Source: Acidimicrobiia bacterium
GTDB lineage: Bacteria > Actinomycetota > Acidimicrobiia > Acidimicrobiales > Bin134
Direction of reading: 5' to 3'
Assembly (NCBI GenBank): GCA_022821445.1
Contig: JAJEDQ010000130.1
Location: 1 to 62,613 of the forward strand
DNA length: 62,613 bases
Shown here: piece by piece, positions 9,319 through 40,063 of the stretch
Position numbering within the stretch: the stretch's first letter is position 1
Layout of the letters: each line of letters begins with the position of its first letter
The notes under the pieces: generated by a model
The model's input: the letters and a program-made list of their open reading frames with translations, nothing else
Database searches by the model: none
What the model was told of the DNA's origin: nothing
Made by a program: the position numbers and the translations under genes

Positions 9319-9353
9319 CTCAGGGTGCGGCACTCTCGAGGCACACTGCATCG

Positions 9354-10334: not shown

Positions 10335-10362
10335 CGTGCATCTCCCTCAAAGAACTGCCCGC

Positions 10363-11619: not shown

Positions 11620-11655
11620 GGGAATCCGTATACGGTCGGCGCCGGAGGGAGGGCG

Positions 11656-12849: not shown

Positions 12850-12869
12850 CGGGCGAGCCGTTCAGGCCT

Positions 12870-14608: not shown

Positions 14609-14612
14609 GTCG

Positions 14613-15872: not shown

Positions 15873-15905
15873 GGGTTTGGTTCCATTCCTTGGTAGTCGA
15901 GTGTG

Positions 15906-16790
15906 TCAACTGTCGGTCGGTGCGTACAGGTCCATGGTGTATGGCTCTGTGTCGTGTGCTGCGCTCCACCGAACTACGTGATTGCGCAAGATGCCAACGG
16001 CTTCTATCTCGGCCTCGATCTGATCTCCGGGCCGGAGGTAGTAGTCGAAGGGATTGGGCTGCACGGCGGCGACGCCGGAGATCGTCCCCGTCGTGATGAT
16101 GTCGCCAGCTGAGTAACCCTGGGGCGAGTGGTAAGCGACGAGGTGGGGGATGTCGATGCGCATCTGTTTCGTATGGCCCTTCTGACGGACATCTCCGTTG
16201 ACGCGTAGTTCCATGGCCAGGTTCTGGGCGTCATCGATTTCGTCGGCGGTGACGATGTAGGGCCCAATGGGGCAGAACGTCTCGATCGCCTTTGAGAACG
16301 AGAAGACTCCAGACTCCATCTCTCGGCGCTGGATGTCACGAGCTGTGATGTCGTTGAACACCATGTACCCAGCGATGTGGTCAACAGCCTCCTCGGCGCT
16401 GAACCAACGTCCTTGCTTGCCGATGATGATGGCTAGTTCGAGCTCGTAGTCGACCTCATTGGTGAGACCCTCGGGATACACGATTGCATCGTCAGGTCCG
16501 ATGATCGCGTCGACATTTTGAAAAAAGACGATCCCTTTGTGGACGGGATGTGACCAGTCAACGGCAGCGAGCTCCTCGTGGTGGTCGAGGAAGTTGCCCG
16601 CGGTGTGGAAGAACTTCTTGGGCACGATCGGCGCTTCAAGGCGAACTTCGCTCATGGCGATGCGTTCGCCGGTCTCGCGAACGTCACCAGCTCGCTCGAA
16701 GTACTCGCGAGTTGTTCCGCATTCGAGTTCGACCATTAGATCATCCTCGATGCGGCCGACTCTTCCGTTGTTGAAAGTTGCGAGTTTCAT
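15906..16790 (-). CDS. FAH family hydrolase/isomerase
   Basis: The 294-residue protein begins MKLATFNNGRVGRI and has the short FAH layout: FFHTAGNFLDHHEEL, the metal-binding stretch NEVDYELELAIIIGK, MVFNDITARDIQRRE, and GDIITTGTISGVA. This form includes 2-hydroxyhepta-2,4-diene-1,7-dioate isomerase and acylpyruvase. It is located between a carboxymuconolactone-decarboxylase-like gene and an amidohydrolase in the operon that also encodes an extradiol dioxygenase, which makes processing of a ring-cleavage product the likely role. Confidence 0.9.
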   Translation of the reverse strand: MKLATFNNGRVGRIEDDLMVELECGTTREYFERAGDVRETGERIAMSEVRLEAPIVPKKFFHTAGNFLDHHEELAAVDWSHPVHKGIVFFQNVDAIIGPDDAIVYPEGLTNEVDYELELAIIIGKQGRWFSAEEAVDHIAGYMVFNDITARDIQRREMESGVFSFSKAIETFCPIGPYIVTADEIDDAQNLAMELRVNGDVRQKGHTKQMRIDIPHLVAYHSPQGYSAGDIITTGTISGVAAVQPNPFDYYLRPGDQIEAEIEAVGILRNHVVRWSAAHDTEPYTMDLYAPTDS

Positions 16791-16806
16791 GGGAATCTCC
16801 GGCCTT

Positions 16807-17403
16807 TCAATTGGAACAATTCAAATCTTGGGGAAGTGCGACCCGGAGGACTCTAAGTTGCATGGCGAGGGTGGCGTAGTAGCCGACGAGGGTCATCAGC
16901 TCGAACAGCCCCGGGAGGCCGAGAGCAGCTACGACGCGGTCGTAGAGCTCGTCGTCGAAATCGCCACATTCGTGGAGCGAGCGCACTGCCTGAACCACCG
17001 TCCGGTCGTTTGCGTCGGGCCACACCGCTGTAGAGTCGTCGCCCTCACGGATCGCGGTGATCTCAGCATTTGTGACACCCGCTGCTCGTGCGATTGGCTC
17101 GTGCGCGTGCCGCTCGAACTCGGATTTCCATGCGGCTGCGACCACGAGTATGGCGAGCTCCCGGGTCCGATCGGTCAACTTTGTTTCGTAGCGGATCGCT
17201 GCGCCAACCGCTTGGAGGGCAGATCCAAGAGCCGGTTGGAGCAGGAAGGCATTGAAAGGTCCTTCCAATCCACCGTCAGCATTGACAATCGAGAAGTACT
17301 GCGGGTCGCGCGACCTTAAGCCGGTGGTGAGCTCGTCGTAGAGACGTTGCTGGGCTTCGTTGAGCTCGGCTGGTCGGAAACGTTCAATCGGGCGCGCGAT
17401 CAT
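16807..17403 (-). CDS. Carboxymuconolactone decarboxylase / AhpD-like protein
   Basis: This 198-residue all-helical protein has LTDRTRELAILVVAAAW, SEFERHAHEPIARAAGV and YYATLAMQLRVL, the usual segments of the carboxymuconolactone decarboxylase family. The Cys pair of AhpD peroxidases is absent, while the Glu-His of the EFERHAHE stretch is present, which argues for a decarboxylase- or lactonase-like role. Its start overlaps the stop of the upstream FAH gene (17400-17403). Confidence 0.87.
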   Translation of the reverse strand: MIARPIERFRPAELNEAQQRLYDELTTGLRSRDPQYFSIVNADGGLEGPFNAFLLQPALGSALQAVGAAIRYETKLTDRTRELAILVVAAAWKSEFERHAHEPIARAAGVTNAEITAIREGDDSTAVWPDANDRTVVQAVRSLHECGDFDDELYDRVVAALGLPGLFELMTLVGYYATLAMQLRVLRVALPQDLNCSN

Positions 17404-18254
17404 GACTCCGACTCCATCTTGACCGCATTGCGCAGCGTACCCACGTGTGACACCGAGACTTCGACGATGTCACCCTCGCGGAGGTATCGAGGGGGGCTTT
17501 CGCGGTTTCCCACGCCCGCTGGTGTACCGGTGGCGATGACGTCGCCGGGTTCGAGCGTCACCCCGCGGGAGAGGTATTCCACTAGCTCGACAGCCGAGTA
17601 GATCATCTTGCTTGTTGAGGAGTGCTGTTTCCTGACACCGCTCACTACCGTTGTGACCTCGAGATCGTCAAGGTCAATGTCGGTGGAGTCGACGAGGCAT
17701 GGCCCCATGGGGGTGAAGGTGTCAAAGCTCTTGCCCAAGGTGAACTGCTTGAGGGGGGTCTCGAGTTGGGCCCGACGGCCCGAGACGTCGTTCACTGCCG
17801 TGATGGCTCCGATTGCTGTCCGTGCGCTGGCGGCGTTGGCGCGGTATGCCGATCGGCCGATCACAATACCCATCTCACCCTCCCAGTCGGGACGGGTCTC
17901 TTCTTGGGGCACGATGATGGTTTGTCCGTGCCCGATCACCGACGATGGGAATTTCGCGAACACAACTGGTTCTTCGGGTTCCTCGTTATTCGATTCTGCT
18001 GCGTGGTCGCGGTAGTTGATCCCAATGGCGAGGATCTTGGCTGGTCGGACTGGCGCGTCGAGCGCCACGTTGTCGAAGGGGTAATTCGGGCCATCGGCAC
18101 TGCGGAGCTGGTTCCAGGCCTCGGTGGTTGGAATGAAGCCGCGCTCGGAAGCCGGCCCCGCATCGACGACGGTATCGCCTTCGAGACGACCCACGCGACG
18201 GCTGCCGTCCACGGCGAACACGACCGCCCTTAGCGACCCGGGGGCACCAGTCAC
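17400..18254 (-). CDS. FAH family hydrolase
   Basis: A 284-residue FAH-fold protein. It has ILAIGINYRDHAAESN, the metal-binding part DWEGEMGIVIGRSAYR, TAVNDVSGR, and the C-terminal GDVIATGTPAGVG. This is the common 2-keto-4-pentenoate hydratase/OHED hydrolase-like subgroup. Two FAH enzymes in one operon suggest successive tautomerase and hydrolase steps. The initiating codon sits directly after the SDR gene (one-base gap), so the two are translationally linked. Confidence 0.9.
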   Translation of the reverse strand: MTGAPGSLRAVVFAVDGSRRVGRLEGDTVVDAGPASERGFIPTTEAWNQLRSADGPNYPFDNVALDAPVRPAKILAIGINYRDHAAESNNEEPEEPVVFAKFPSSVIGHGQTIIVPQEETRPDWEGEMGIVIGRSAYRANAASARTAIGAITAVNDVSGRRAQLETPLKQFTLGKSFDTFTPMGPCLVDSTDIDLDDLEVTTVVSGVRKQHSSTSKMIYSAVELVEYLSRGVTLEPGDVIATGTPAGVGNRESPPRYLREGDIVEVSVSHVGTLRNAVKMESES

Positions 18255-19052
18255 CTACGCACCCACCATGTTGAAGCCTCCATCAGCCAGCATGTACGCG
18301 CCCGTAATGTGGTTGGCGTCGTCGGTGGCGAGGAACAGCGCAGCCCCAGCAATCTCGGCTGGCCCTGGGATGTGGTTCATGGGGGTCATGGACCGCAGTT
18401 CCTCCGCTCGACCGCTCTTCCAGTCCTCTCGGCCGAGAGTTGCTTCGGTCTCGATGAAGCCCGGGGCGAAAGTGTTGATACGGACGGTGGGGGCAAACGC
18501 ATGGGCGTAGGACTTTGTGAGCCCGATCAAGGCATATTTGGCCGCGGCGTACTGCGGAGCTCGAGCGCTGCCGCGAACCACGACCGTCGACCCGATGTTG
18601 ACTATGTTGCCGTGGCCTTGTTCGAGCATCCGCGTACCAAACTCATGAATGCAGAACATCGTTCCCTTCACATCGACGTCGATGACGTGATCGATCGAGG
18701 CTTCAGTGACATCGCGCCAGGACATCTGCTCTCGGGCCACATCACCCACGTTGTTGACCAGGGTGTCGACGGTCTCGATCTCAGCAAAGGACTTCTCCGC
18801 CATGGCCCGAACCTGATTCCAATCCGAGATATCGGCTTGCAGGAGCAGCGCAGAACTGCCTGTCGCCTGTACCCGCTCAACGGTGCGCTTAGCGCCCTCC
18901 ATCGAGTTCCGGTAGTGCACGCCGACGACCCGGGCCCCCTCCTGGGCGGCCCGCACGGCAATCTCGGCACCGAAGCCGGTGCCTGCCCCCGTAACGAGAA
19001 CAGATCGACCTTCGAAGCGCTTGGGCATGGGAACTTGCGTGGGAGCCATCAA
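18255..19052 (-). CDS. Short-chain dehydrogenase/reductase
   Basis: This 265-residue classical SDR has the cofactor motif VTGAGTGFGAEIA, the NNVGD segment, the active-site Ser in NIGSTVVV, and YAAAK as the catalytic Tyr-Lys pair. The C-terminal part reads PGPAEIAGAALFLATDDANHITG, read in parts, which is usual. It oxidises or reduces an alcohol/ketone with NAD(P). It lies between the extradiol dioxygenase and a FAH gene in the minus-strand operon. Confidence 0.92.
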   Translation of the reverse strand: MMAPTQVPMPKRFEGRSVLVTGAGTGFGAEIAVRAAQEGARVVGVHYRNSMEGAKRTVERVQATGSSALLLQADISDWNQVRAMAEKSFAEIETVDTLVNNVGDVAREQMSWRDVTEASIDHVIDVDVKGTMFCIHEFGTRMLEQGHGNIVNIGSTVVVRGSARAPQYAAAKYALIGLTKSYAHAFAPTVRINTFAPGFIETEATLGREDWKSGRAEELRSMTPMNHIPGPAEIAGAALFLATDDANHITGAYMLADGGFNMVGA

Positions 19053-19118
19053 TTCCTTTCGATGGGGAATCTCGCAACTGAGAGGTCTGCACCATGCCGA
19101 AACTCGGAAAGGCGTTTG

Positions 19119-20057
19119 TCAGACTGGCGGAGGGACATAGAGCCCTCGGTCCGGGTCGTTGTGGCTCTTTTGCGCAATGTCGGGGCCCATTGGGTTGGCG
19201 GTTCCCCATTGGTCGGCGACCATGGGCTCGACTATCGGGTACTTGTGGGGTACCCAGGTGGCCTCGTCCACCAACTCGAGTTCGGTCGTGTACTCCATTG
19301 TGTTGCCAGCCGGATCGATGAAATAGTTGAACATGTTGTCGCCGGCCTTGTGCTTGCCGGGCCCCCAGATGCGCTCGATGCCGGCCCGCATCACCCGGCC
19401 CGTCGCCATCATGTTCTCCTCCACACCACGCATCTCGAATGAAAGGTGATGGAGAGACGCATGCGGGCCGCGGACGACCGCGAAGGTGTGATGCCAGGGG
19501 CTGCAACGCAGAAACCACATCAGGTCGCCCATGCCAGGCATCGTCAGCTGGTCGCTGATCGCCATTCCGAGGTGCTGCATGTACCAAGCGACCGTGCTCT
19601 CCGGATCGGCCGAGTTGATAACGACGTGTGACAGCGATCGCGGGATCGCCTCCATCGGCTCGATCTCGCGGGCTTCGTGCTCTTCGACTTCGCAGCAGAC
19701 CTCGAGCGTGCGTCCGTCACCGTCGAAGAATCGGAAGCCGTACCCGCCGCCGTAGGTCGTCAAATCCCTGGGCTCGGTCACCAGCTGAACATTGGCGCTG
19801 CCGAGCAAGGACGCGAGCCGGTCGACCGCGGCGCGATCTGCGGCGCCCAGGCTGATGAGGTCGATCCGCTTGTCGTCGGCCTCCCGCAGCCGCACGACAA
19901 AGGGTTCAGGTGAGCCTTCTGCGGCCATATAGGACAAGTTGCCGTCGGTGGCGACCTCGCTGAGGCCCCAGGTGTCGAGGTAGAAATTCCGCTGCTCCGC
20001 GTAGTTGGACACCGCGAGGTCGACGTGGCGGAGGTGGGTTATCAATCGTTCTGTCAT
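19119..20057 (-). CDS. VOC-family extradiol dioxygenase
   Basis: This 312-residue two-domain vicinal-oxygen-chelate protein has the repeated modules RHVDLAVSNYAEQRNFYLD and SHVVINSADPESTVAWYMQ. Likely iron ligands are the His in SHVVIN, the His in LHHLSFEM and the Glu in NTMEYTTELE, the 2-His-1-carboxylate set of type I extradiol dioxygenases. Length also matches catechol-2,3-dioxygenase relatives. The start was set to ATG 20057 (GGAAG upstream) because the family begins there; an upstream ATG at 20096 adds 13 residues. It follows the FAD monooxygenase, which could supply a hydroxylated ring as substrate. Confidence 0.88.
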   Translation of the reverse strand: MTERLITHLRHVDLAVSNYAEQRNFYLDTWGLSEVATDGNLSYMAAEGSPEPFVVRLREADDKRIDLISLGAADRAAVDRLASLLGSANVQLVTEPRDLTTYGGGYGFRFFDGDGRTLEVCCEVEEHEAREIEPMEAIPRSLSHVVINSADPESTVAWYMQHLGMAISDQLTMPGMGDLMWFLRCSPWHHTFAVVRGPHASLHHLSFEMRGVEENMMATGRVMRAGIERIWGPGKHKAGDNMFNYFIDPAGNTMEYTTELELVDEATWVPHKYPIVEPMVADQWGTANPMGPDIAQKSHNDPDRGLYVPPPV

Positions 20058-20080
20058 AAGTACTTCCGGCTCCGAGATGG

Positions 20081-21205
20081 TCAGGCCGGCTCGCATAGCG
20101 CGCCGAGCGTTCGCATGAATAGTCCGGGGATGTCTGCGTCGGGGTCATCGTCGATCATCCACTGCCCCACTTGCACCGACGCATCCACCACGGTCTTGGC
20201 CCGGTCGTAACGGCGATCCATGAATGCGTCGAGCGCGGACGCGAGATCACTGTGGGCCAGCAAACTCTCGCCTAGGACTAACGCGTCCTCCATGGCCTGT
20301 GCGGCACCCTGCGCAATCGTCGGCGGGCAGGTATGGGCAGCATCGCCGATCAGGACTACGCGGCCGCGCCACCAGGGCGGTTCGAGGATCATTTTCTCGA
20401 ACCAGGTGTAGTGGACGGTCGCTGGGTCGATCATCAGCTCGCGAATGTCCTCCCACGGTCCTTGGTAGGCCCCGGAAAGCTCGCGCATATAGGCGAGCTG
20501 GTCTTCTGGCGGCATCTCTTCGCGATCTTGCATCGGTTCCACGATGTAGGCGTACAGGGAATCCTCACCAGTTGGGCAGTAGCCGGCGATGTAGGCGGGA
20601 CCCGCGTAACAGAGGTCGGTGCGCTCTACCGAGTCTGGTCGGCTCGTGAAGACTCGGAAGATTCCCATGCCGGTGGGCTCGGGCCTGGTAGTGATCCCGA
20701 TCATGTCCCGCACCGTCGACTTGACACCGTCGGCTCCGATTACAACGTCGTAGCGGCAGTTAGTCCCGTCGCTGAATGTCACATCAACCCCCGCGCCTTC
20801 GTCATCGAAGTTGGCTACCGTCATGCCGAAACTCAGCGTTGCGCCGGCTGCCGACGCGGTGTCGACGAGAATCTCAGCTAGGTGCCTCCGTTCCATTCCG
20901 AGGGTCGCCGGGAGATCCTGGCCACCAGTCTTGATGTCATCGAGTTCCGCCACAAGGGTGCCGTCGGGTATGCGGATCCCGGTGGTGTCGAATGCGTAGC
21001 CGGCGTCTGATGCTGCTTCCCAGGCACCGATCTCTCGGAGCACTCGCAATGCGTTGCCTTGGATGGTGATACCTGAGCCAAGTGCGGTCACGTCGTTTTG
21101 GATTTCCACTATGTCTACATCGACGCCGTCTCTGGCTAGGACTGCGGCGACGACACATCCTGCGCTGCCCGCGCCCACCACTAGGGCCGTTTCAACTGCT
21201 GCCAT
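20081..21205 (-). CDS. FAD-dependent aromatic-type monooxygenase
   Basis: A 374-residue flavoprotein hydroxylase with dinucleotide fold ALVVGAGSAGCVVAAVLARDG near the N-terminus (in parts), the DG motif GADGVKSTVR, and the second FAD motif VLIGDAAHTCPPTIAQGAAQAMED in parts. The ATG at 21205 has AGGGGAA 7 bases upstream; the longer frame to 21271 would run through the promoter. It heads the minus-strand operon and is divergent from a LysR gene that is now a remnant. The first ten codons are repeated at 25562-25591. Confidence 0.92.
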   Translation of the reverse strand: MAAVETALVVGAGSAGCVVAAVLARDGVDVDIVEIQNDVTALGSGITIQGNALRVLREIGAWEAASDAGYAFDTTGIRIPDGTLVAELDDIKTGGQDLPATLGMERRHLAEILVDTASAAGATLSFGMTVANFDDEGAGVDVTFSDGTNCRYDVVIGADGVKSTVRDMIGITTRPEPTGMGIFRVFTSRPDSVERTDLCYAGPAYIAGYCPTGEDSLYAYIVEPMQDREEMPPEDQLAYMRELSGAYQGPWEDIRELMIDPATVHYTWFEKMILEPPWWRGRVVLIGDAAHTCPPTIAQGAAQAMEDALVLGESLLAHSDLASALDAFMDRRYDRAKTVVDASVQVGQWMIDDDPDADIPGLFMRTLGALCEPA

Positions 21206-21375
21206 TCGACTTTCCCCTGCAAATGCGAAAACTGACTTGTCTTTGCTTGGCGAACAGTACTCAAGTGGCATTCATCAGCGAAGGTGAAACTGATAATACG
21301 TGCCATTGGTTTGAGCTATAGGGGAGGATTTCGGTGAGAACCGACGGAGGCAATGAGCCGGCCACCGATCTCAAC
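21176..21375. repeat. 200-bp direct repeat, copy 1 (monooxygenase/LysR divergent promoter)
   Basis: These 200 bases match 25562-25761 without gaps and with six mismatches (97 percent). Each copy covers the first ten codons of the monooxygenase (minus), the intergenic promoter region and the first fourteen codons of the LysR gene (plus). The copies face the same way and bracket a 4186-bp insert. Confidence 0.95.
21206..21333. promoter_or_regulatory. Divergent promoter region, monooxygenase operon / LysR remnant
   Basis: The 128 bases between the two starts hold a GATAAT hexamer and, at 21272-21289, TTCATCAGCGAAGGTGAA, an interrupted inverted repeat of the kind LysR-type regulators bind. A Shine-Dalgarno GGGGAGG lies before the GTG at 21334. 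The same sites exist in the second repeat copy next to the intact LysR gene, which could therefore still control this promoter in trans. Confidence 0.5.
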
Positions 21376-21398
21376 CTACGGACAGCTCTTGCTGGGCC
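21334..21398 (+). pseudogene. LysR-family regulator remnant with internal deletion
   Basis: Translation starts MRTDGGNEPATDLN exactly like the intact LysR at 25720. Base 21375 is then joined to CTACGGACAGCTCTTGCTGG (21376-21398, 23 bases), which equals positions 26064-26086 of the intact gene. The missing stretch corresponds to 302 bases (25762-26063), not a multiple of three, so the frame is lost and the DNA-binding domain is gone. Confidence 0.88.
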
Positions 21399-21505
21399 AG
21401 GCGCTGGCGCCAGACCCGCCGGTCCTCCGAAATGCTCCACCGGTGGAGATCGGCCAGACCGCCTCCCAGGGCGAGACGATCCTCGTCAGACCCTTCAGAC
21501 ACTGA
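21399..21505 (+). other. Unidentified coding tail after the LysR remnant
   Basis: In the frame of the LysR inner fragment the reading continues with residues PPVLRNAPPVEIGQTASQGE and ends ILVRPFRH-stop at 21505, overlapping the 3' end of the convergent metallo-hydrolase by 11 bases. It does not resemble LysR and may be the end of another lost gene. It was not recognised. Confidence 0.3.
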
Positions 21506-22664
21506 GTTCCAGCATGTCCTCGCCGATGATCAGGCGCCCGGAGTAGCCGTCCTGAGCGGCGGCGAGCACATCCGCCGGGGTCGTCGACGGCACGATGTGG
21601 GACAACACCAGGTTGCGAACGCCGGCCGGCTCGGCGACGTCTCGACCAACCTGCTCGACGGTGGTGTGCGCAGTCAGCAGGTGTTCGCGCACTGCCGGAC
21701 CGACATCGGGCGGGAGAATCGACGCGAGCCGGTCGGCAAAGGCCGGATCAATGACCTCGTGCACCAAGTAGTCCGCCCCATGCGCGAGGTCGATCAGATT
21801 CTCCGAAACCGTCGTGTCACCGGAGACCACGATCGACCCGTCAGGAGTGTCGAACCGGAAGCCGTATGCAGGAGCCGTCGGGTGGTGATCGACGAGCGTC
21901 GCCGTCACGCGCACGTCGCCGTCCTCCCAAACCTCGATTGGGCCCGACAACCGGGGCGGGATGCCAGCCGGATCGACCGTCCAGTGTGGCGAGTGGTCGA
22001 TGTCGTGGACATCGAACCAGTCGTCGGGAATCTTGAAGTTGCTGTCTCGCGCCCGATCGTTGAAGTCTGCCGCGAATGCCTTTCGCAGATACCCGGTCAT
22101 GCCTTCGATCCCCGGCGTCGGGTCGTCCGGCTCGATCACCGAGGGTTCGGGCCGGTGCGGCGGGAACACTCGGGGGAGCGTGTCTCGGCGTCCAGGACCG
22201 AACACCTGAACTGGGTCGGTCGCTTTGTTCGCCATCATGGTCCCCGTGGCGTAGAGGGCCGGCCAGTCCACGCAGTGATCACTGTGCATGTGCGTGAAGA
22301 ACAGTGCCCGGAGCGACAGGAAGGTGTTGCTGGAATCGCCGCCGTTCTCACGCTGACCGAGTGCTGCCAAACGGTTGAGCGAGCCGACCCCGAGATCGAC
22401 GACATACATGCGGTCCGCATGGATGATTGCGGTGCAGACACCGACGCGGCTCGGATTGCTGATGACAGGCCCACCGGCCACACCGACCGTCACTAAACGG
22501 GTTCGTCCGCCGGCGCGGTCGCTCGGCGCCATCGCTTCGAACCCCGGGGCTATGCGTGGCGACGCTGAGGCGGCCACAGCAGCATCCTCCGCAAGCGCTG
22601 CCAGCACCTCTCCCCGTTCGCGCTCCGGCATGCTGTTCACGGCCCGACTCACCACATCGCACAT
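21495..22664 (-). CDS. MBL-fold metallo-hydrolase (RNase Z / arylsulfatase-like)
   Basis: This protein of about 389 residues has the metallo-beta-lactamase motif THMHSDHCVDW (HxHxDH), later GSIVVSGDTTVSENL with the Asp ligand, and LVLSHIVPS with the last His. The layout is that of RNase Z-like hydrolases that cleave phosphodiester or sulfate-ester bonds; no tRNA-binding exosite arm is evident. ATG 22664 is preferred over 22718, which would run into the truncated sulfatase frame. It is the last gene of the minus-strand set in the insert, downstream of the sulfatases. Confidence 0.83.
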   Translation of the reverse strand: MCDVVSRAVNSMPERERGEVLAALAEDAAVAASASPRIAPGFEAMAPSDRAGGRTRLVTVGVAGGPVISNPSRVGVCTAIIHADRMYVVDLGVGSLNRLAALGQRENGGDSSNTFLSLRALFFTHMHSDHCVDWPALYATGTMMANKATDPVQVFGPGRRDTLPRVFPPHRPEPSVIEPDDPTPGIEGMTGYLRKAFAADFNDRARDSNFKIPDDWFDVHDIDHSPHWTVDPAGIPPRLSGPIEVWEDGDVRVTATLVDHHPTAPAYGFRFDTPDGSIVVSGDTTVSENLIDLAHGADYLVHEVIDPAFADRLASILPPDVGPAVREHLLTAHTTVEQVGRDVAEPAGVRNLVLSHIVPSTTPADVLAAAQDGYSGRLIIGEDMLELSV

Positions 22665-22698
22665 CGTCTTCGCATTTCGTCCTGACTGTTCCGCGCCT

Positions 22699-22788
22699 TC
22701 AGACCGAGCCCATGGCACCCAAGCACCCGATCGACTGCCCAGCGTGGTCGTCGGTCAAGACGACGACGATGTTCGGGCGCCGAGTCAT
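22699..22788 (-). pseudogene. Truncated second sulfatase, N-terminal 26 codons
   Basis: The frame starts MTRRPNIVVVLTDDHAGQSI and stops after 29 residues. The RPN-VV-LTDD segment is the standard N-terminus of sulfatases, including the metal-binding Asp pair. Its ATG overlaps the stop of the complete sulfatase (ATGA, 22785-22788), which is how tandem co-translated genes look. The rest of the gene is missing and the metallo-hydrolase follows. Confidence 0.8.
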
Positions 22789-24254
22789 CCTGCCTCCATC
22801 GACCGGGAGCCCGCCGGCTGAGGCAGGTCGACCTGCGGAAATCGGGGATTGTCATCCCACGGCATCACGTCGGCGGTCGCGACCATCCACCGCAACAGCT
22901 CGGCGCTCAGCGTCGCTTCGAGCTCGGCGTGCTCGGGCTGGCCTGCGAGATTGTGCAGCTCCTGAGGGTCGGCGCGCCGGTCATAGAGCTCTGGCGGCTC
23001 GTACAGGCGCCACACATAGGTCCACTCCGTCGAGCGGATGGCCACCGCCTTGCCGACCGTCTCGGGTCGTTCGTGTTGCGCCTTGCCTTTGAGGTCGTAC
23101 GGAAAGCCCGGGTTCTCCAGCTGGCCGTGTTCTTCGACGAGGAAGCCGCCCTCGGTGAACGCGTACTCCCGGTGCCCGACGTCCGGATCTCGAAGCACCG
23201 GAACGAGGCTGCGCCCGAAATGGGTGTAGTCGGGCTCGAAACCAGCGAAATCGTAGAGCGTGGGGACAATGTCGATCAGCTCGACCATCGCGTCGACAGC
23301 GCGTCCTTCGGCGATGCCGGGTCCGGCCATCACCAGCGGATCTCGGGTGAGGCAGTCGTGCATGCCGGAGGGCCACTTCTCGATCAGGTCGTAGTCCCCC
23401 AGGTACTCGCCGTGGTCGCTGAAGAAGACCACCACGGTGCTCTCGAGGTCGTCTCCGGCCGCTGCGAGTATGCGGCCGAACTGTGAGTCGAGCCGGGAGA
23501 CCATGCCGTGATAGACCGCCGCGATCTCGCGCCACTCCTCGTCGGAGAGGCGGCCGAGCCCGTAGGTGTCGCGAACGTTCTGCATGAACGCCGGTTCGTG
23601 ACCCGACTGCACATGCCCCGCCCGCTGCGGCAGCGCGGCGCGGTCGTGCATCGAGTACCAAGGCTCAGTCGCCGCGAACGGGCAGTGCGGGAAGATCATG
23701 GGCACGTAGAGCAGCCACGGCCGGTCATGAGGTCGCTCGGCCAGCCACGCCTCGGCGGTTCGGGTGCACGCCTCGTCGAAGTCGTGGTCGTGCTCGTCGT
23801 CGACCTTGCCGATGTAGAACGCTCTCGACATCGGCCAGTCGGGATGCATCTGCCCCTTGGGGGCCATCATTGGGGTGTCCGGCGGCGTTGCCCAGCCGTA
23901 TTCGTGACAGCTCTCCTCGGTGGCGCCAGGTGCCCAGGTGTCGCCACGCTCACCGACATGGACGACGTGGTAGCCACGCTGCTTGAACGACTTCAAGACA
24001 TTCGGGTCGTCGGGGCGCAACAGATGGGTGAGGCTGCGGTGCCCCCGCGTGTGCGGATACCAACCGGTCAGAAACGACGCCCGGCTCGGCGAACACACGG
24101 GATGCTGGGTGAAGCAATTCGTGAAGCGGGTCCCTCGCTCTGCCAGGGCATCGATGTTCGGCGTACTGGCGAAGTCGGCACCGAACGCGCCGACTGCGTC
24201 GGCTCGTAGCTGGTCGGCCACGATCATCAACACGTTCGGCCGGTTGTTTGTCAT
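22785..24254 (-). CDS. Sulfatase (type I, formylglycine-dependent)
   Basis: The 489-residue protein begins RPNVLMIVADQLRADAVGAF with the metal-binding Asp, then has the sulfatase signature CSPSRAS with the Cys to be converted to formylglycine at residue 54, and FFSDHGEYLGDYDLIEKW with the second metal-binding DH pair. It has no signal peptide, so it acts in the cytoplasm. It would hydrolyse a sulfate or related ester; choline-sulfatase-like or aryl substrates are possible. The stop overlaps the truncated second sulfatase. Confidence 0.93.
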   Translation of the reverse strand: MTNNRPNVLMIVADQLRADAVGAFGADFASTPNIDALAERGTRFTNCFTQHPVCSPSRASFLTGWYPHTRGHRSLTHLLRPDDPNVLKSFKQRGYHVVHVGERGDTWAPGATEESCHEYGWATPPDTPMMAPKGQMHPDWPMSRAFYIGKVDDEHDHDFDEACTRTAEAWLAERPHDRPWLLYVPMIFPHCPFAATEPWYSMHDRAALPQRAGHVQSGHEPAFMQNVRDTYGLGRLSDEEWREIAAVYHGMVSRLDSQFGRILAAAGDDLESTVVVFFSDHGEYLGDYDLIEKWPSGMHDCLTRDPLVMAGPGIAEGRAVDAMVELIDIVPTLYDFAGFEPDYTHFGRSLVPVLRDPDVGHREYAFTEGGFLVEEHGQLENPGFPYDLKGKAQHERPETVGKAVAIRSTEWTYVWRLYEPPELYDRRADPQELHNLAGQPEHAELEATLSAELLRWMVATADVMPWDDNPRFPQVDLPQPAGSRSMEAG

Positions 24255-24272
24255 GAGCCCGCCCCTTCGATG

Positions 24273-24377
24273 GAAGCCAGCAGGTCATCAGCTTCACCCC
24301 TGAAGCCGAGGGCGCGGACATGAACGCCGTCTTCGAGAACATCGGCGCCACCGACGCCAAGCTCGAGCACCGTGCGC
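24273..24377 (+). pseudogene. Cupin gene remnant
   Basis: On the plus strand the stretch reads PEAEGADMNAVFENIGATDA and continues AKLEHRAR, nearly the same as residues 86-108 of the cupin encoded at 8776 (PEAEGADMDAVFENIGATDA). At DNA level 24302-24367 differs from 9031-9096 in 6 of 66 positions, mostly third codon positions. There is no start codon context and the motif-bearing C-terminal half is absent. It lies between the sulfatase start and the Rieske stop. Confidence 0.85.
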
Positions 24378-24378
24378 G

Positions 24379-25428
24379 TCACTTCGCTGTGGATGGTTCG
24401 GCTTCGAGCTGGCGTCCGATGACCCGTCGAGCTGCGAGCGCACCGGAATCGATCTTCAGGCTGACCTCGGTCACCACGTCGCTTTGCCCGAGTACCCGTT
24501 CGACGTGCGCTAGTGCTTCCACGTCCTGGAGAACCACCGTGCGCTGCATGTCGGCCATCGCCTCGTCGACCCCCTCGTCGTCAACCGAGAAGTTGCGACA
24601 CAACGCCCAGAAGTCGAGGGTGGTCCCTGCCGTGGACGGAGTGATGGCGTACAAGATCTTCAGATGAGCGGCATCGGGGTCGCTGCCGTCGAGGGCCGGG
24701 GCGACTCCCGCCGGTGCGATCCGAGAGTGCAGGACGTACTGGCAGATCGGGCGGTATTCGATGTCCTGCCAGCGATCGATCGGCGATGTCATTCCCGTGG
24801 TCTCGGAGTAGAACTTGGGACACTCGACCGCCGCCATGCGACGGCTGACCCTGACGGTCCCGGTCGCGTCATCGACCTCGGTCTCGATCGGCGTCGCTGC
24901 GACTTCGCGGGTTCCGATGTAGCCGGCATGGAGGAAGGTCTCGTGCGACAGATCGAGCAAGTTGTCAACCAACAGCCCGTAGCGAGCGGCGATCGGTTCC
25001 ATACCGTGGAGTACTGCCCAGCCAGGCTCACTGAGCCATGGAAGGACCGGCGGCGCTGCCACTCCTGGGTGCGTGGGATCCCCGATCCACACCCAGATCC
25101 ACGGCCCGGTCTGACAAAGGGGGTACGACGCAACTGAGGCGCTCGAGGGAATTCTCGACTGGTTCGGCGCCCAGACGCACGTGCCGGACGACGAGAACGT
25201 CAGTCCGTGGTAGCCGCATTGCAGCTGCCCATCGACGACCTGGCCTAGTGACAGGGGGTAATTCCGATGAGGGCATCGGTCGACGAGCGCCGCTAGCGTT
25301 CCCTCGGCGTCCCGGAACAAAACGATGTTCTCGCCGCACACGGTGCGTGCCAGCGGGCCGTCACCGAGCTCGTCGACGGAGGCGATGACGAACCACTGGT
25401 TGGTCGGGAGCTCGGTGGGCATGGTCAT
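24379..25428 (-). CDS. Rieske oxygenase alpha subunit (vanillate O-demethylase VanA-like)
   Basis: This protein of about 349 residues has the Rieske [2Fe-2S] ligands in DRCPHRNYPLSLG and QCGYHGLTF (C-x-H ... C-x2-H) and a catalytic-domain iron site visible as DLSHETFLHAGY (His/His). The N-terminus MPTELPTNQWFVIAS and the length fit the VanA/phthalate-oxygenase group that demethylates aryl ethers or hydroxylates rings. The ATG at 25428 has GAGGACAACG upstream. No reductase gene is adjacent. If it is a vanillate demethylase it would feed the protocatechuate cluster, but substrate prediction here is inference. Confidence 0.87.
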   Translation of the reverse strand: MTMPTELPTNQWFVIASVDELGDGPLARTVCGENIVLFRDAEGTLAALVDRCPHRNYPLSLGQVVDGQLQCGYHGLTFSSSGTCVWAPNQSRIPSSASVASYPLCQTGPWIWVWIGDPTHPGVAAPPVLPWLSEPGWAVLHGMEPIAARYGLLVDNLLDLSHETFLHAGYIGTREVAATPIETEVDDATGTVRVSRRMAAVECPKFYSETTGMTSPIDRWQDIEYRPICQYVLHSRIAPAGVAPALDGSDPDAAHLKILYAITPSTAGTTLDFWALCRNFSVDDEGVDEAMADMQRTVVLQDVEALAHVERVLGQSDVVTEVSLKIDSGALAARRVIGRQLEAEPSTAK

Positions 25429-25468
25429 CGTTGTCCTCGATTCGCGATACATCGGTCGTTCGAAGTGA

Positions 25469-25591
25469 TCACAGGGCGGCGAGGAGCGACTCGAGTGCTG
25501 TCATGTACTGCTCGTGGCCGCCGAGTGCGTCGTGGATGCCGTGCGCCTGGCCGGTAGCGGTCACCACTAGGGCCGATTCAACTGCTGCCAT
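25469..25591 (-). pseudogene. Monooxygenase N-terminal remnant fused to a foreign tail
   Basis: The first ten codons (MAAVESALVV) equal the start of the intact FAD monooxygenase at 21205, with its ribosome-binding site and promoter. At 25561/25562 the match stops and a different tail (TATGQAHGIHDALGGHEQYM, ending LLAAL-stop) follows. The tail looks like the 3' end of another gene, perhaps upstream partner of the Rieske gene; I do not recognise it. Confidence 0.8.
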
Positions 25592-25761
25592 TCGACATTC
25601 CCCTGCAAATGCGGAAACTGACTTGTCTTTGCTTGGCGAACAGTACTCAAGAGGCATTCATCAGCGAAGGTGAAACTGATAATATGTGCCATTGGTTTGA
25701 GCTATAGGGGAGGATTTCGGTGAGAACCGACGAAGGCAATGAGCCGGCCACCGATCTCAAC
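25562..25761. repeat. 200-bp direct repeat, copy 2
   Basis: The copy ends 14 codons into the intact LysR gene and begins ten codons into the monooxygenase remnant. See copy 1 at 21176-21375 for the comparison. It retains the complete divergent promoter region including TTCATCAGCGAAGGTGAA and the GGGGAGG ribosome-binding site. Confidence 0.95.
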
Positions 25762-26694
25762 GTCCTTGACCTCAATCTTCTCATCGCTTTGGACGCCCTG
25801 TTGCGTGAGCAGAGCGTGACCCGGGCCGCCGGCCGACTTCTGCGCAGCCAACCGGCTTTGTCCGGCTCACTTCAGCGGCTGCGCCGCCAGTTCGATGACG
25901 AGCTGCTTGTCCGGGTGGGAAATCGATACGAGTTGACCCCGTTGGCCGCCCAGCTCAAGACTCGCGTTGCGGTCCTGCTCGCCGACGTTGGACGTCTTTA
26001 CGAGACGCGTTCAACTTTTGACAGTGCCCGATCTACCCGGGAGTTCACAATTGCGGTGTCCGACTACGGACAGCTCTTGCTGGGCCGTGCAATCGCGGCT
26101 GAGCTGGAGTCAGCAGCCCCTCACGCTCGTCTCCGGTTCCGACCTTTGAACGACGAATTGATTGCCACCGCCGCAACGGCGGTGAGGAATGTGGATGGCT
26201 TTGTTCTTCCTGTGGGCCTCATCGAGGGCATTCCACACTTCAAGGCCTATGAGGATCGTTGGGTTCTTTTGGTAGACATCGACAACCCAAAGGTCGGAGA
26301 ACAGGTCACACTTGACGAACTAAGCGAATTGGAATGGGTAACGGCCTTTCACCGCGAGGACTCGCCGGTACCTCCAGTTCGCCAACTTCAATTGCTTGGT
26401 GTGGACATGAGGGTCAGAGTCGTAGTGGAGGGGTTCGTGCCCTTGCCGTTGTACGTTCAGGGAACCGATTCCATTGCCGTAATCCAAGAGGGCTTGGCCC
26501 GACAGATCGCCCCGGCTGAGCGGTTCCGATTCCTCGAGTGTCCATTCGATGTCGTTCCACTCGCTGAGTCATTCTGGTGGCATCCGTCACTTCAGAACGA
26601 TCCCGGTCACGCGTGGTTTCGAGAATTGATAGGTCAGGCTGGCCAACGCATAGAGAAAAAACTGCTCGAAATCAACTCCTCTTCCAATAACTAG
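25720..26694 (+). CDS. LysR-family transcriptional regulator
   Basis: The 324-residue protein has the N-terminal winged helix-turn-helix (LNLLIALDALLREQSVTRAA, SQPALSGSLQRLRRQFDD) and a periplasmic-binding-type effector domain beginning around REFTIAVSDYGQLLLG. This layout resembles NodD/LinR-type LysR proteins. It starts at GTG 25720 behind GGGGAGGATTTC. It is divergent from the remnant of the monooxygenase whose intact copy lies at 21205 under an almost identical promoter, so it probably controls the ring-degradation operon. The effector is probably an aromatic compound. Confidence 0.92.
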   Translation: MRTDEGNEPATDLNVLDLNLLIALDALLREQSVTRAAGRLLRSQPALSGSLQRLRRQFDDELLVRVGNRYELTPLAAQLKTRVAVLLADVGRLYETRSTFDSARSTREFTIAVSDYGQLLLGRAIAAELESAAPHARLRFRPLNDELIATAATAVRNVDGFVLPVGLIEGIPHFKAYEDRWVLLVDIDNPKVGEQVTLDELSELEWVTAFHREDSPVPPVRQLQLLGVDMRVRVVVEGFVPLPLYVQGTDSIAVIQEGLARQIAPAERFRFLECPFDVVPLAESFWWHPSLQNDPGHAWFRELIGQAGQRIEKKLLEINSSSNN

Positions 26695-26708
26695 AGCCGA
26701 TATCGAGT

Positions 26709-26732
26709 ATCAGCAGTTTCCGCTTTGCTGAT
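26709..26732 (+). terminator. Possible hairpin after LysR
   Basis: Arms ATCAGCA (26709-26715) and TGCTGAT (26726-26732) form a 7-bp stem with a 10-base loop, 14 bases after the LysR stop. No T-tract follows, so termination is uncertain. Confidence 0.35.
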
Positions 26733-26784
26733 GATGTAGGCGTTGGTATGTTCCCCCGTGGGGCGATGTGCGTCCCTTGACACG

Positions 26785-26798
26785 CCCGCATGTGCGGG
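26785..26798 (+). promoter_or_regulatory. Inverted repeat upstream of the ABC importer operon
   Basis: CCCGCA and TGCGGG flank a 2-base spacer 25 bases before the lipoprotein start, after a TTGACA hexamer at about 26778. It may be an operator or leader hairpin. The Shine-Dalgarno GAGGGGG lies between it and the ATG. Confidence 0.4.
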
Positions 26799-26823
26799 TG
26801 GACTCTGAGGGGGTCGATACACG

Positions 26824-28452
26824 ATGAAACAATCCAGCCGACTTTTGAGGCTTCTGGCAGTCTTGCTCGCTCTCGTGCTGGTCACCGCCGCCTGTGGGGA
26901 TAATGACGACGATGCCAGCCCCGGGGCAGGGGACTCAGTTGCCGATTCCGGCGATGCGGCCCCGTCCGGCGACGACAGCGGCGATTCCGGCGATGCGGCC
27001 CCGTCCAGCGGAGGTTTAACGCTCACGGTGGCCCTTGAATCCGATTACTCGCCGGCGACATACAACCCTCAGGCCTACGCACTGCAACAATTCCCGTTCC
27101 ACAGTCTGCTGTACGACTCACTCTTTGTTACGACTAGCGACGGCGAGATCGTGCCGAACATCGTCACCGAGTTCGCGACCAACGAGGAGGCGACGCAGCT
27201 GACGTTTTCGCTTCGCGAAGACTTAGTCTTCGATGACGGCAGTCCTCTTGACGCAGAGCTGGTGAAGGCCAATTTGGATCGGCGGCTCGAGGAAGATCTG
27301 CGGTCGTATAGCCTCTTCGGAGAGGGCCAGGAAGGCGAGATCGCCGATGTCGTCGTCAGCGGGCCGTACGAAGTCACGATTCACTGGGCGTTCGAGCAAG
27401 GAATTGCAAACGGCCACGAATTCCTCGCCGACAACGTCGGTGCGATCGTCGGACCCAACGGTGCGGCCGACAGCACCACCCTCGAGACAGCTCCAGAAGG
27501 CTCTGGCCCGTACCGTCTCGACCTTGACGCGAGCACCCGTGGAGCCACCTATGTCCTCCGCAAGTGGGCTGACCACTGGAATGCCGATGCCTACGCCTAT
27601 GACACGATCATCTTCAACATCATCACCGACGCGCAGGCCCGGGCAAACGCAGTCCTCTCCGGGGAGGCCGACCTGGCGATCAAGATCGAACCAAACCAGA
27701 TCAACCAACTGGAGTCAGAAGGTGCCCTTGCCAAGATTGGGGGCACCGTCGCGGCTGTGAACGTGCTCGACAAGACTGGTGAGCGAGTGCCCGCCTTCGG
27801 ATTTGTCGAGACCCGCCACGCTCTGTCGCTGGCGATCGATCGTCAGACCATCGTTGATGCACTGCGGCCTGGCGCCCGGCCGACTGTGCAGTACTTCCCC
27901 GAGCAGGCTGTCGGATTCGACCCGACGTTGAATGAGCGGTACGCCTACGACCCCGACCGAGCCCGCGAGCTGTTGGCATCGGTCGGTCTCGAGGACGGCT
28001 TCGAAGTCGACAAGGTGGTGCTCGGCGAGCCGACCGATGTTGAGCTCGCCATCCAGCGGATGTGGCAGGAAGAGCTGGGGGTCACCCTGAACTTCCCGGC
28101 CGTCACCAACACCGGCGAGCTCTTCGCTTCCGTCAATACGACTGCCATCATCATCAACGAGTGGGGTCTCGGCCTCCGGCCCGCCGGATTCGTCGCAGGT
28201 CCTGTGACCAGTGGCTTCATGAACACCCAGGGCGCCGAGAGTGAGGCAATCAGCTCAGTGCTGGGCCCGGCGCTGGGTGGCAACCCAGAAGCCCTGGTAG
28301 CGCTGAACAACGCACTGGTCGACGAGGGCTGGTGGATTGGCCTCTACGAGACCTTCACATACGCTGGCTACAATCCCGACTCCATCCAGGGAGTGCCGTT
28401 CGGGGGCATCTCGGGCATCGTCGTCATGGCTGATGTCGAACCGGTGGGCTGA
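26824..28452 (+). CDS. ABC transporter substrate-binding lipoprotein, family 5
   Basis: The 542-residue protein has a lipoprotein signal (LLAVLLALVLVTAAC, lipidated Cys at 24), an acidic Ser/Gly/Asp linker containing a 13-codon repeat (DSGDAAPS twice), and the family 5 solute-binding fold: EFATNEEATQLTFSLREDLVF in parts, SGPYRLD, ATYVLRKWADHWNADAYAYD and RHALSLAIDRQTIVDALRPG. This family binds oligopeptides, opines, nickel or oligosaccharides. It opens an operon with two permease and two ATPase domains and a GH1 glycosidase, so a glycosylated aromatic or sugar ligand is possible. Confidence 0.93.
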   Translation: MKQSSRLLRLLAVLLALVLVTAACGDNDDDASPGAGDSVADSGDAAPSGDDSGDSGDAAPSSGGLTLTVALESDYSPATYNPQAYALQQFPFHSLLYDSLFVTTSDGEIVPNIVTEFATNEEATQLTFSLREDLVFDDGSPLDAELVKANLDRRLEEDLRSYSLFGEGQEGEIADVVVSGPYEVTIHWAFEQGIANGHEFLADNVGAIVGPNGAADSTTLETAPEGSGPYRLDLDASTRGATYVLRKWADHWNADAYAYDTIIFNIITDAQARANAVLSGEADLAIKIEPNQINQLESEGALAKIGGTVAAVNVLDKTGERVPAFGFVETRHALSLAIDRQTIVDALRPGARPTVQYFPEQAVGFDPTLNERYAYDPDRARELLASVGLEDGFEVDKVVLGEPTDVELAIQRMWQEELGVTLNFPAVTNTGELFASVNTTAIIINEWGLGLRPAGFVAGPVTSGFMNTQGAESEAISSVLGPALGGNPEALVALNNALVDEGWWIGLYETFTYAGYNPDSIQGVPFGGISGIVVMADVEPVG

Positions 28453-28473
28453 TGCCTAAATTGAGCTGACGAG

Positions 28474-28507
28474 GAGGGGTTCGCCGGCAGAGGTCGGCGA
28501 GCCCCTC
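28474..28507 (+). terminator. Strong intercistronic hairpin between binding protein and permease
   Basis: GAGGGGTTCGCCG (28474-28486) pairs with CGGCGAGCCCCTC (28495-28507) over 13 positions with one wobble; loop of 8. No U-run follows. Such a hairpin usually stabilises the upstream mRNA and reduces read-through, giving an excess of binding protein over permease. Confidence 0.65.
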
Positions 28508-28558
28508 TTGCTCCATCCAGGCCGTTGGCCTGCTCAGAATATTGGGGGATCCGGAACC

Positions 28559-29500
28559 ATGCCGTTGTACATAGCAAAACGGCTTGCTATCGGCGTCGGA
28601 ACCATCTGGGCAGCCTTCACGCTTACATTCCTCCTCGTTCACAGTACCGACAACAGCCCCGGTGCCGTTCGACTCGGGATGGGGGCCACCCCCGAAGAGG
28701 TCGAGGTCGAAAACGAGCGCCTTGGCTGGAATCGACCCCTCCTGACTCAATACGCAGACGACCTAGGAAAGATGGTGCGGCTCGATTTCGGTCAGTCCCT
28801 CATCAACCGCGGAGATGTCAGGGACCAGCTCTCAGATCGGCTGCCGGTCACAGCTTCGATCTCGGTTCTGGCCACATTGCTCGCGGGCATCGTTGGCACC
28901 GCACTTGGGGTAGTAGCCGCAGTACGCGGCCGCGGTACGGCCAAGGCTGTCAACGCGTTTTCTGGTTTCTCGCTCTCAATTCCCTCGTTCTGGCTTGGTG
29001 TGGTGCTCGTCTACTTCTTCGCGATTCGGCTCGACCTTCTGCCAGCAACGGGATACAGCCGGTTCAGCGAGGGCGTCGGGAGTTGGCTACAGAGCCTCGC
29101 CCTCCCGGTTATCACTCTCGCGATCGGCGGTGCTGCCGTGGTGGCCCGAATGGCCGCGTCCGGAATGCGAGAGGCCTTGGCACGCGAGTACATAACAACC
29201 CTGCGGGCTATTGGCACACCAGAGTGGAGAATTCGCTACATACATGCCCTGCGGGCGGCGAGTCTGCCCGTGGTCGGCGCGCTTGGCGTCCAGTTCATCG
29301 TGCTTTTCGGTGGGTCGGTCATCATCGAAAACCTCTTCGCCCTTCCGGGGATCGGTCAAGCTGCTTTGTTTGGGGCAACAGGCAACGACTTCCCCATCCT
29401 CATCGGCGTGGTGGTCATGTCCACGGCCGTGGTGGTGATTACTAACCTCGTCCTAGACCTTCTCACCGCCGTACTCGATCCGAAGTTGCGGACCAGATGA
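28559..29500 (+). CDS. ABC transporter permease (DppB-like)
   Basis: This 313-residue inner-membrane permease starts at ATG 28559 (GGGGGATCC upstream). It begins YIAKRLAIGVGTIWAAFTLT as DppB proteins do, has six hydrophobic segments, and carries the EAA-type loop around MREALAREYITTLRAIGTPE. The C-terminal IENLFALPGIGQAALFGA is also characteristic. Its stop overlaps the next start (ATGA, 29497-29500). Confidence 0.93.
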   Translation: MPLYIAKRLAIGVGTIWAAFTLTFLLVHSTDNSPGAVRLGMGATPEEVEVENERLGWNRPLLTQYADDLGKMVRLDFGQSLINRGDVRDQLSDRLPVTASISVLATLLAGIVGTALGVVAAVRGRGTAKAVNAFSGFSLSIPSFWLGVVLVYFFAIRLDLLPATGYSRFSEGVGSWLQSLALPVITLAIGGAAVVARMAASGMREALAREYITTLRAIGTPEWRIRYIHALRAASLPVVGALGVQFIVLFGGSVIIENLFALPGIGQAALFGATGNDFPILIGVVVMSTAVVVITNLVLDLLTAVLDPKLRTR

Positions 29501-30354
29501 GCAGCATTCGGCAAGCCAAACAGCAGCGCATTCCGGCGTTCCTGCGATCGTGGGGAGGAGTGTTCGGGGCCGGATGGCTGATCTTTATGTTTCTCGCCTC
29601 GATCACTGCTCGTTGGTGGCGCCCTTACGACGTCGCGGAGCAGGACCTGATCGCACGGCTGCAGGGGCCCTCAAGCGAGTATTGGCTCGGTACCGATGCT
29701 GTGGGCCGCGACCTGTTCAGCCGAGTCTTCACCGCCGGCGCCTTACCCCTTCAGGCGTCGGCGGTGATGGTTCTCGTCGCTTTCGGCATCGGTCTGCCGC
29801 TTATCCTCATCGCGGCGGAACGAGGCGGACGCGTCGAAGAGGCCATCGGTCGCTTCGCTGAGACAATCATGTCGCTGCCATCCACGGTGATCCTGTTGGC
29901 GGCAATCGGGGCTATCGGCAATCGCATCTATCCCGTCATGATGATCTTCGGCCTGTTGGTCTCAGCAGCGCTGTACCGGATACTGATCGGGGTTGCGAAG
30001 TCCAGCCGACAACATCTGTACATTGATGCTGCCCGAGTCGACGGCATGGGCTCCATTCGGGTCAACCTTGCCCATGTACTGCCCAGCATGGCCCGCCCGA
30101 TCGCCGTTCAGGCAGCCATTGTCTACGCGATCGGACTGCTGATCATCAATGGTCTGGCGTTTCTCGGGTTCGGGCCCGGAGAACCTCAGCCCAGCTGGGG
30201 ATTCATGATCAAAGACGCCTCCGACAACATTTTCAACTCCCCGTGGATGATGGTTCCCTCCCGGCGTCGCCCTCTCGCTCACGGTCATGGCGGCGAATGC
30301 GCTGGCCGATGCGCTGGCCGGACCCCTCGGCATCCCGGAGTACACCCCCCCTAA
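29497..30354 (+). CDS. ABC permease domain (DppC-like), 5' part of a frameshifted permease-ATPase fusion
   Basis: The frame encodes a DppC-type permease: GTDAVGRDLFSRVFTAG, multiple membrane helices, and the EAA loop SSRQHLYIDAARVDGMGSIR. It is normal as far as NIFNSPWMMVP (to about 30258). After that the residues (SRRRPLAHGHGGECAGRCAG) are unlike any permease, while the expected end GVALSLTVMAANALADALAG is found one frame over. One surplus C in 30260-30262 would explain it. The correct product would continue into the ATPase at 30287 as one polypeptide, an arrangement known in actinobacteria. Confidence 0.85.
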   Translation: MSSIRQAKQQRIPAFLRSWGGVFGAGWLIFMFLASITARWWRPYDVAEQDLIARLQGPSSEYWLGTDAVGRDLFSRVFTAGALPLQASAVMVLVAFGIGLPLILIAAERGGRVEEAIGRFAETIMSLPSTVILLAAIGAIGNRIYPVMMIFGLLVSAALYRILIGVAKSSRQHLYIDAARVDGMGSIRVNLAHVLPSMARPIAVQAAIVYAIGLLIINGLAFLGFGPGEPQPSWGFMIKDASDNIFNSPWMMVPSRRRPLAHGHGGECAGRCAGRTPRHPGVHPP

Positions 30355-32451: not shown

Positions 32452-32476
32452 TCGGGCAGCTCGCCTAGGAGGAACC

Positions 32477-33718: not shown

Positions 33719-33723
33719 CCGGT

Positions 33724-34836: not shown

Positions 34837-34865
34837 TGACGCATTCCTTGCGTGGTCGGTTCAGC

Positions 34866-35810: not shown

Positions 35811-35865
35811 CGTAGATCCTCTCGGCTTCCACTCGTGCAGATGATCTTGCCACCTGCCCGCCAGG

Positions 35866-35889: not shown

Positions 35890-35904
35890 TGCGAAACTCG
35901 TCCA

Positions 35905-36978: not shown

Positions 36979-36980
36979 CA

Positions 36981-37886: not shown

Positions 37887-37891
37887 TTGCT

Positions 37892-40062: not shown

Positions 40063-40063
40063 T

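Follow-up and report, generated by a model that had tools for sequence, protein, structure and literature searches.

How can three genes come to lie between a LysR-type regulator and its divergently transcribed monooxygenase neighbor when the control region of the pair is now present twice? The question is raised by a 62,613-nucleotide contig of an Acidimicrobiia bacterium (JAJEDQ010000130.1 of assembly GCA_022821445.1, positions 1 to 62,613 of the forward strand), which in its whole length we call the window. Two 200-bp direct repeats, in the same orientation and 4386 bp apart from start to start, bracket 4.2 kb that carry a Rieske oxygenase gene, a sulfatase gene and a gene for a metallo-hydrolase of the metallo-β-lactamase (MBL) fold. 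The explanation that we favor, and that we consider probable with considerable reserve, is that a 4.16-kb mosaic fragment holding these genes came by one illegitimate insertion that duplicated its target.

The doubled control region and the mosaic insert

The two copies of the repeat are identical at 194 of 200 positions (97%, 6 mismatches; BLAST E 4e-93), and this E-value excludes a chance origin. The repeat search had given the limits 21171-21375 and 25557-25761 at 96% identity, and BLAST trimmed the ends to 200 bp. Each copy consists of 30 bp (10 codons) from the start of the monooxygenase gene, the 128-bp divergent intergenic region, and 42 bp (14 codons) from the start of the LysR gene. 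No third copy was found in the genome, which is 92.7% complete, the matches outside the locus being only 15-31 nt long, and no inverted repeat pair of at least 25 nt, the lower limit of that search, occurs in 19000-28000. The left joint includes a further piece of LysR sequence. Directly 3′ of the repeat, positions 21376-21398 match an internal stretch of the LysR gene (26064-26086) at 23 of 23 nt, and between codon 14 and this piece 302 bp of LysR are missing from the stub.

Both original neighbors are complete. The start of the monooxygenase gene was set at 21205, which gives the length found in 84 of the 120 listed homologues, and an AGGGGA motif precedes it in the sequence. An earlier, sequence-only reading of this DNA had described the 97% direct repeat around a 4.2-kb insert, the left copy joined to the monooxygenase and a LysR stub, the right copy joined to LysR and to ten monooxygenase codons, and the three kinds of inserted gene; the repeat search and BLAST, the sequence itself and the Pfam matches, respectively, agree with that description (Table 1).

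The insert is read as a patchwork with ragged fragment ends and not as an element with defined termini. The Rieske gene, whose start was placed by reading the sequence at the ATG at 25428 behind GAGGA, is separated from the sulfatase gene by a 68-nt fragment whose source is the cupin gene (8776-9318) of the catabolic island in which the whole structure lies. At the MBL gene, most aligned homologues begin at residue 19 of the long open reading frame (ORF). Neither of the two edge ORFs, the GTG-started one on the left and the 30-codon tail on the right, has a Pfam match at E 10. The GC content of the insert is 0.655, and that of the whole island 0.620.

Table 1. Positions of the repeats, genes and fragments in the window
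Feature	Position	Strand	Remarks
Catabolic island	8749..46821		near tRNA-Ser 8556-8645; size 35-38 kb
FAD-dependent monooxygenase, 374 aa	20081..21205	-	PF01494 E 4e-38; NCBIfam NF005313 above cut-off; intact in 5/5 genomes
Left repeat copy	21176..21375		10 monooxygenase codons, 128-bp divergent control region, 14 LysR codons; adjoins intact monooxygenase
LysR stub	21334..21398	+	first 14 codons, then 23 nt of LysR interior
Left end of the insert; may be the start of another truncated gene	21399..21502	-	GTG-started ORF from 21502, overlaps MBL stop
MBL-fold metallo-hydrolase, 389 aa	21495..22664	-	PF12706 E 3e-9
Sulfatase, 489 aa	22785..24254	-	PF00884 E 1e-42
Cupin-gene fragment, 68 nt	24299..24366	+	91% identical to 9028-9095
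Rieske oxygenase, VanA-like	24379..25428	-	PF00355 and PF19112
40-codon fusion ORF	25469..25591	-	10 monooxygenase codons and a 30-codon tail ending in a stop; open in 5/5 genomes
Right repeat copy	25562..25761		adjoins intact LysR
LysR-type regulator, intact	25720..26694	+	PF00126 E 9e-14

Occurrence in five species and relative age

The monooxygenase was found at 99-100% identity in 4 of 98 other relatives, and all four (G003, G005, G012 and G020) are among the 21 other genomes of the same genus; a fifth match, 33% identical, belongs to another family. By their record titles these carriers are Acidimicrobiia metagenome-assembled genomes. Both repeats and the 23-nt LysR piece are present in all four, the spacing of the repeats is 4386 bp in three of them and 4387 bp in G020, where 1 nt is inserted in the MBL gene, and the 128-bp intergenic region is contained in both copies in all five genomes. 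Because the genome collection contains one genome per species, the insert carriers count as five species. The whole insert is confined to these same 5 of the 22 genus genomes, and none of the five shows this gene order in the absence of a repeat. Elsewhere in the genus only the cupin fragment has matches; a search with the edge fragments returned, beyond the five copies, only matches of 18-36 nt (E 0.006 to 0.09), which we took to be chance.

Within one genome, the left and right copies differ at 4-7 of 200 sites, and their longest shared exact run is 43-70 nt. In a tree of all ten copies, the left copies and the right copies fall on opposite sides of a single branch (support 96/93). Three fixed differences separate the two groups, and the mean number of pairwise differences is 0.4 among left copies, 3.4 among right copies and 5.8 between left and right. 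From the split in the tree and these differences, the duplication is likely older than the common ancestor of the five copies of the island. The earlier proposal of a recent integration has to be given up: a recent, strain-specific event is ruled out by a structure common to five species together with the left/right split.

Differences between the five genomes were also used to assess the individual genes, with the qualification that they were summed over genome pairs, that a single change may thus count repeatedly, and that all copies compared bear the insertion. For LysR, 36 synonymous and 0 nonsynonymous differences were counted (six genome pairs, with G020, whose contig ends inside the gene, omitted), and the ratio of nonsynonymous to synonymous differences (pN/pS) of the monooxygenase gene was 0.21 (10 genome pairs). 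Both genes are thus intact and constrained. Among the inserted genes, pN/pS was 0.06 for the Rieske gene (over 24379-25419) and 0.20 for the sulfatase gene (10 genome pairs each), and 0.48 for the MBL gene (six genome pairs, with the frameshifted G020 omitted), from which the Rieske and sulfatase genes look as if they have been kept functional and the MBL gene less so. The 40-codon fusion ORF, at 0.87 (10 genome pairs), appears to evolve as if it were non-coding.

At E 1e-90, no MBL relative was found in 295 other genomes of the phylum (drawn sample); in the protein database its relatives are 52-79% identical, the closest named one at 64% (Mumia). At E 1e-60, a relative of the Rieske protein occurs in 1 of 295 other genomes of the class, likewise a drawn sample, whose matches do not include G003, G005, G020 or G012; it is 52% identical, and no other query protein lies within 1.5 kb of it. 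A LysR relative at E 1e-40 was seen in 1 of 394 other class genomes, namely G012. Monooxygenase proteins of 74-76% identity occur in metagenomes. A protein from another source, P0126, departs from the common MBL sequence at about the same place as the G020 frameshift.

Origin of the structure

The uninterrupted pair was looked for among distant loci. Relatives of the monooxygenase at E 1e-90 were present in 6 of 395 other phylum genomes (drawn sample), and the plasmid collection added three loci; in these nine loci, which were inspected over 11-12 kb, the monooxygenase relative is at least about 49% identical. A LysR relative (41.7-44.7% identical) is found in six of the nine and is divergent from the monooxygenase in all six. 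At locus L069, of a distant actinobacterium, the two genes are adjacent and divergent, with about 200 bp between the aligned parts, and at L100, a plasmid-collection locus with a monooxygenase of about 50% identity, LysR is divergent with an FAH-like gene between. VOC relatives of 57-61% identity lie near the monooxygenase in seven of the nine loci, and the MBL, sulfatase and Rieske genes in none (E 1e-8, within 11-12 kb). With six divergent LysR genes and no insert genes in nine loci, a divergent LysR without the insert is the commoner state, and we infer from these nine loci, three of them without a LysR relative, that it was probably also the ancestral one. What stands of the sequence-only reading is a divergent pair split by an insert with its control region doubled, for which L069, with its adjacent divergent pair and no insert genes nearby, offers the undivided counterpart; the recent date is not supported, and a reciprocal loss of genes is unnecessary.

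How would one insertion yield the present arrangement? A single staggered break, or repair by template switching, would have opened the divergent monooxygenase/LysR promoter. About 200 bp would then have ended up on either side of a scrap of other DNA that was joined in at the same time; the left joint fits equally well with a 525-bp duplication from which 302 bp were later lost. Such a target duplication would give the order monooxygenase - repeat - insert - repeat - LysR, with a stub on each side and both genes whole, and the finished structure would likely then have spread between species with the island. Because the duplicated target extends from one gene start across the control region to the other, no gene loss is needed, and what had been described as two half-lost neighbors between repeats can be read as a single insertion with target duplication, in which reciprocal losses are dispensable. 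Residues such as the 23-nt LysR piece and the cupin fragment are expected of end-joining or template-switching repair. The joints also supply exact sequences with which the empty state and the donor can be sought.

One could envision, alternatively, that a larger segment comprising monooxygenase, promoter and LysR was tandemly duplicated and that deletions and the gain of an insert in its middle followed. The left stub lacks 302 bp from the interior of LysR, and the stretch copied was perhaps 525 bp (25562-26086) or more, as this scenario would have it; illegitimate tandem duplication is moreover a known route of promoter capture in the accessible part of PMC11111574. However, the scenario requires one duplication, at least two deletions and one insertion, and a DNA self-comparison at E 1e-3 detected no other trace of the monooxygenase or LysR gene between the repeats, so that we regard it as unlikely, though worth keeping in mind. 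Another scenario is that a circular DNA with a promoter fragment beside the insert was integrated by a single homologous crossover within the 200-bp region. This would leave exactly the order gene A - repeat - insert - repeat - gene B, and the deletion in the left LysR could derive from the donor. That donor, however, must already have joined the pieces, and none was found among 72,556 plasmid records (five partial matches, the best covering 9% at 71%) or 50,697 phage records (no match); the insert ORFs scanned, furthermore, contain no replication or transfer domain. We think an integration of this kind rather improbable.

Direct repeats at both ends might also suggest a transposon-like or site-specific element with 200-bp terminal repeats. 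The repeat, however, is made up of promoter sequence flanked by the starts of two genes, a third copy is missing from the genome sequence, and no transposase, recombinase or integrase was recognized by Pfam among the insert ORFs scanned; we give this explanation hardly any credence. Assembly error, which had been raised for this locus before, is unlikely, given that five contigs agree and that the two copies share at most 70 exact bases; long reads were not among the data. In its specific form, a misjoining of two strains or loci at the repeat, it would be favored by the origin of the four other genomes from metagenomes and by the state of the window's own genome, which is in 256 contigs. Contigs of five genomes nevertheless agree on both the joints and the spacing, and the four other contigs have names starting with k141, which we take to denote assembly with words of 141 bases, longer than the exact runs shared by the copies (43-70 nt). 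Such an artefact therefore seems very improbable to us.

Several observations sit poorly with the single insertion that we favor. No clear microhomology was seen at the joints by eye. The uninterrupted monooxygenase-LysR locus, which the sequence-only reading had proposed to look for, was found by an exact pattern allowing no mismatch in 0 of the 22 genus genomes, only 5 of which carry the monooxygenase at all, and it has a counterpart only in the adjacent divergent relatives at L069, which are just 54% (monooxygenase) and 44% (LysR) identical to the proteins of the window. At least one FAH-like gene separates LysR from the monooxygenase in the five other LysR-bearing loci, and in 3 of the 9 distant loci a LysR relative is missing altogether. 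A frameshift affects the MBL gene in one of the five genomes (G020, by the 1-nt insertion, at about 21766 of the window). Finally, the right copy of the repeat has 6 variable sites among the five genomes and the left copy 1, a difference that is not significant (Fisher p 0.12).

The copied promoter and the surrounding island

If the insertion copied a working promoter, then the question is whether it now serves the inserted genes. The Rieske, sulfatase and MBL genes are all on the minus strand to the left of the right repeat, and the copied monooxygenase promoter points into them. From the right repeat, it is predicted to transcribe the three genes leftwards, and LysR would then co-regulate them with the monooxygenase. 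The original upstream region of the Rieske gene was likely severed at 25561. Since the right repeat is the nearest complete control region upstream of the Rieske gene, its promoter is directed toward that gene and a pattern scan listed no terminator-like site between the two, the arrangement supports capture by the copied promoter, and we consider regulatory capture of the insert genes plausible on this evidence from the DNA. The Rieske gene, moreover, looks to be under purifying selection, so that control of the insert by LysR, as the sequence-only reading had suggested, may well exist.

There are also reasons for doubting the capture. Between the Rieske start and the right repeat lie 133 bp of other sequence, and the Rieske gene possibly has a promoter of its own. 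A sigma-70-type promoter was not found by the pattern scan, and no operator could be aligned across the intergenic regions of five distant loci; the 128-bp intergenic region does contain four T-N11-A strings with partial symmetry, a motif that we take to be that of a LysR operator. Within the Rieske gene, ahead of the sulfatase and MBL genes, the scan listed one weak terminator-like site (24987-24975, minus strand); terminator-like sites in the region number 2 against 1.7 expected. The right copy, moreover, is not visibly more constrained than the left and gives no apparent sign of a constrained second promoter.

The finding is a natural variant of the known principle of promoter capture, and an older one than the sequence-only reading proposed. 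The accessible part of PMC11111574 describes how promoters are captured when DNA is deleted or tandemly duplicated, illegitimate recombination being one of the routes, citing Anderson and Roth 1978 and Li and Bock 2019, and the cases cited there are laboratory ones. As in that account, so far as it is accessible, a non-homologous rearrangement here copies a promoter and may put promoterless genes behind it; unlike the cases in that part of the paper, the whole LysR-type divergent control region was copied, it brackets the insert, both old neighbors are intact, and the structure is common to five species. In orientation and gene types, the pair is like other LysR-type regulators that are divergent from an aromatic catabolic monooxygenase cluster; unlike the usual pair, it is split by 4.2 kb and has its control region twice. 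Merodiploids from natural transformation arise, according to the accessible part of PMC3784515, when repeats already present pair homologously and about 100-900 kb are duplicated. The resemblance is that DNA uptake can leave direct repeats around duplicated or new material, but at the present locus the duplication is only 200 bp long and the search of the genome gave no additional copy of the repeat. In a search conducted mostly without subscription papers, none was found that describes acquired genes bracketed by a duplicated LysR divergent control region.

If the copied promoter drives the insert genes, the locus would be a natural case, preserved in five species, of one-step wiring to an existing regulator. 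We suggest, tentatively and as a possibility that we hold less firmly than the insertion itself, that one repair accident doubled a whole LysR divergent control region around a block built from scraps, that the horizontally spreading island thereby gained three enzymes wired at once to its existing regulator with the old genes unharmed, and that the new genes were recruited by way of the copied switch. Judging from the families PF19112, PF00355 and PF00884, the VanA-like Rieske protein and the sulfatase could feed demethylated or desulfated aromatics to the ring-cleavage genes of the island.

The island itself is set off from its surroundings in several ways. Identity to G003 is 99.3% over 38 kb (8749-46821) and to G012 99.1% over 34.9 kb (8749-43655), whereas the flanking alignments of at least 600 bp to these two genomes are 89.7-95.0% identical (88.7-96.6% in 1-kb bins). 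In G005 and G020, identity in 1-kb bins is 90.7-95.1% up to about 8 kb and 97.5-100% inside the island; the contigs of both stop short of its right edge. The GC content is 0.620 inside, 0.676 to the left and 0.653 to the right. The distance between the flanks was computed from match positions in genomes with both flanks on one contig: it is short, 0.24-8.8 kb, in 6 of 6 measurable genus genomes that lack the monooxygenase (G013 237 bp, G002 2156, G006 2573, G018 3610, G007 6013 and G019 8808), and it is 42.5-45.4 kb in G000, G003 and G012.

Of two sets of ring-cleavage genes in the island, one encodes a VOC dioxygenase, an FAD monooxygenase, an SDR and FAA hydrolases, and the other encodes LigB, a second FAD monooxygenase, PrpF, a GFO/IDH oxidoreductase and Amidohydro_2 proteins; an ABC transporter is also encoded. 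The second set (33724-43601) resembles, as we take it, a protocatechuate 4,5-cleavage pathway. In the comparisons with G003 and G012, the left edge of the island is about 100 bp from tRNA-Ser. By eye, two ABC-transporter-like genes lie between tRNA-Ser and the island in G003 and G012 and are absent there in the window, so that the tRNA does not mark a fixed left edge. The idea that the island might be an integrase-borne tRNA element is weakened by these intervening genes and by the lack of an integrase domain in the ORFs scanned, which were part of those of the window. A flavin monooxygenase gene is the neighbor of the island on the side opposite tRNA-Ser.

Near the right edge of the island there is a second direct repeat of 138 bp (45227-45364 and 46824-46961, 90.6% identical), which brackets a DUF1214 gene and covers the start and upstream sequence of a FitA-like antitoxin gene; the match to G003 ends at 46821, just before the second copy. 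This repeat may be another joint of the same kind as the 200-bp repeat. Just outside the island lies a second sulfatase gene (799 aa, 48136-50535), of which about 100 nt are 72.5% identical to the sulfatase gene of the insert.

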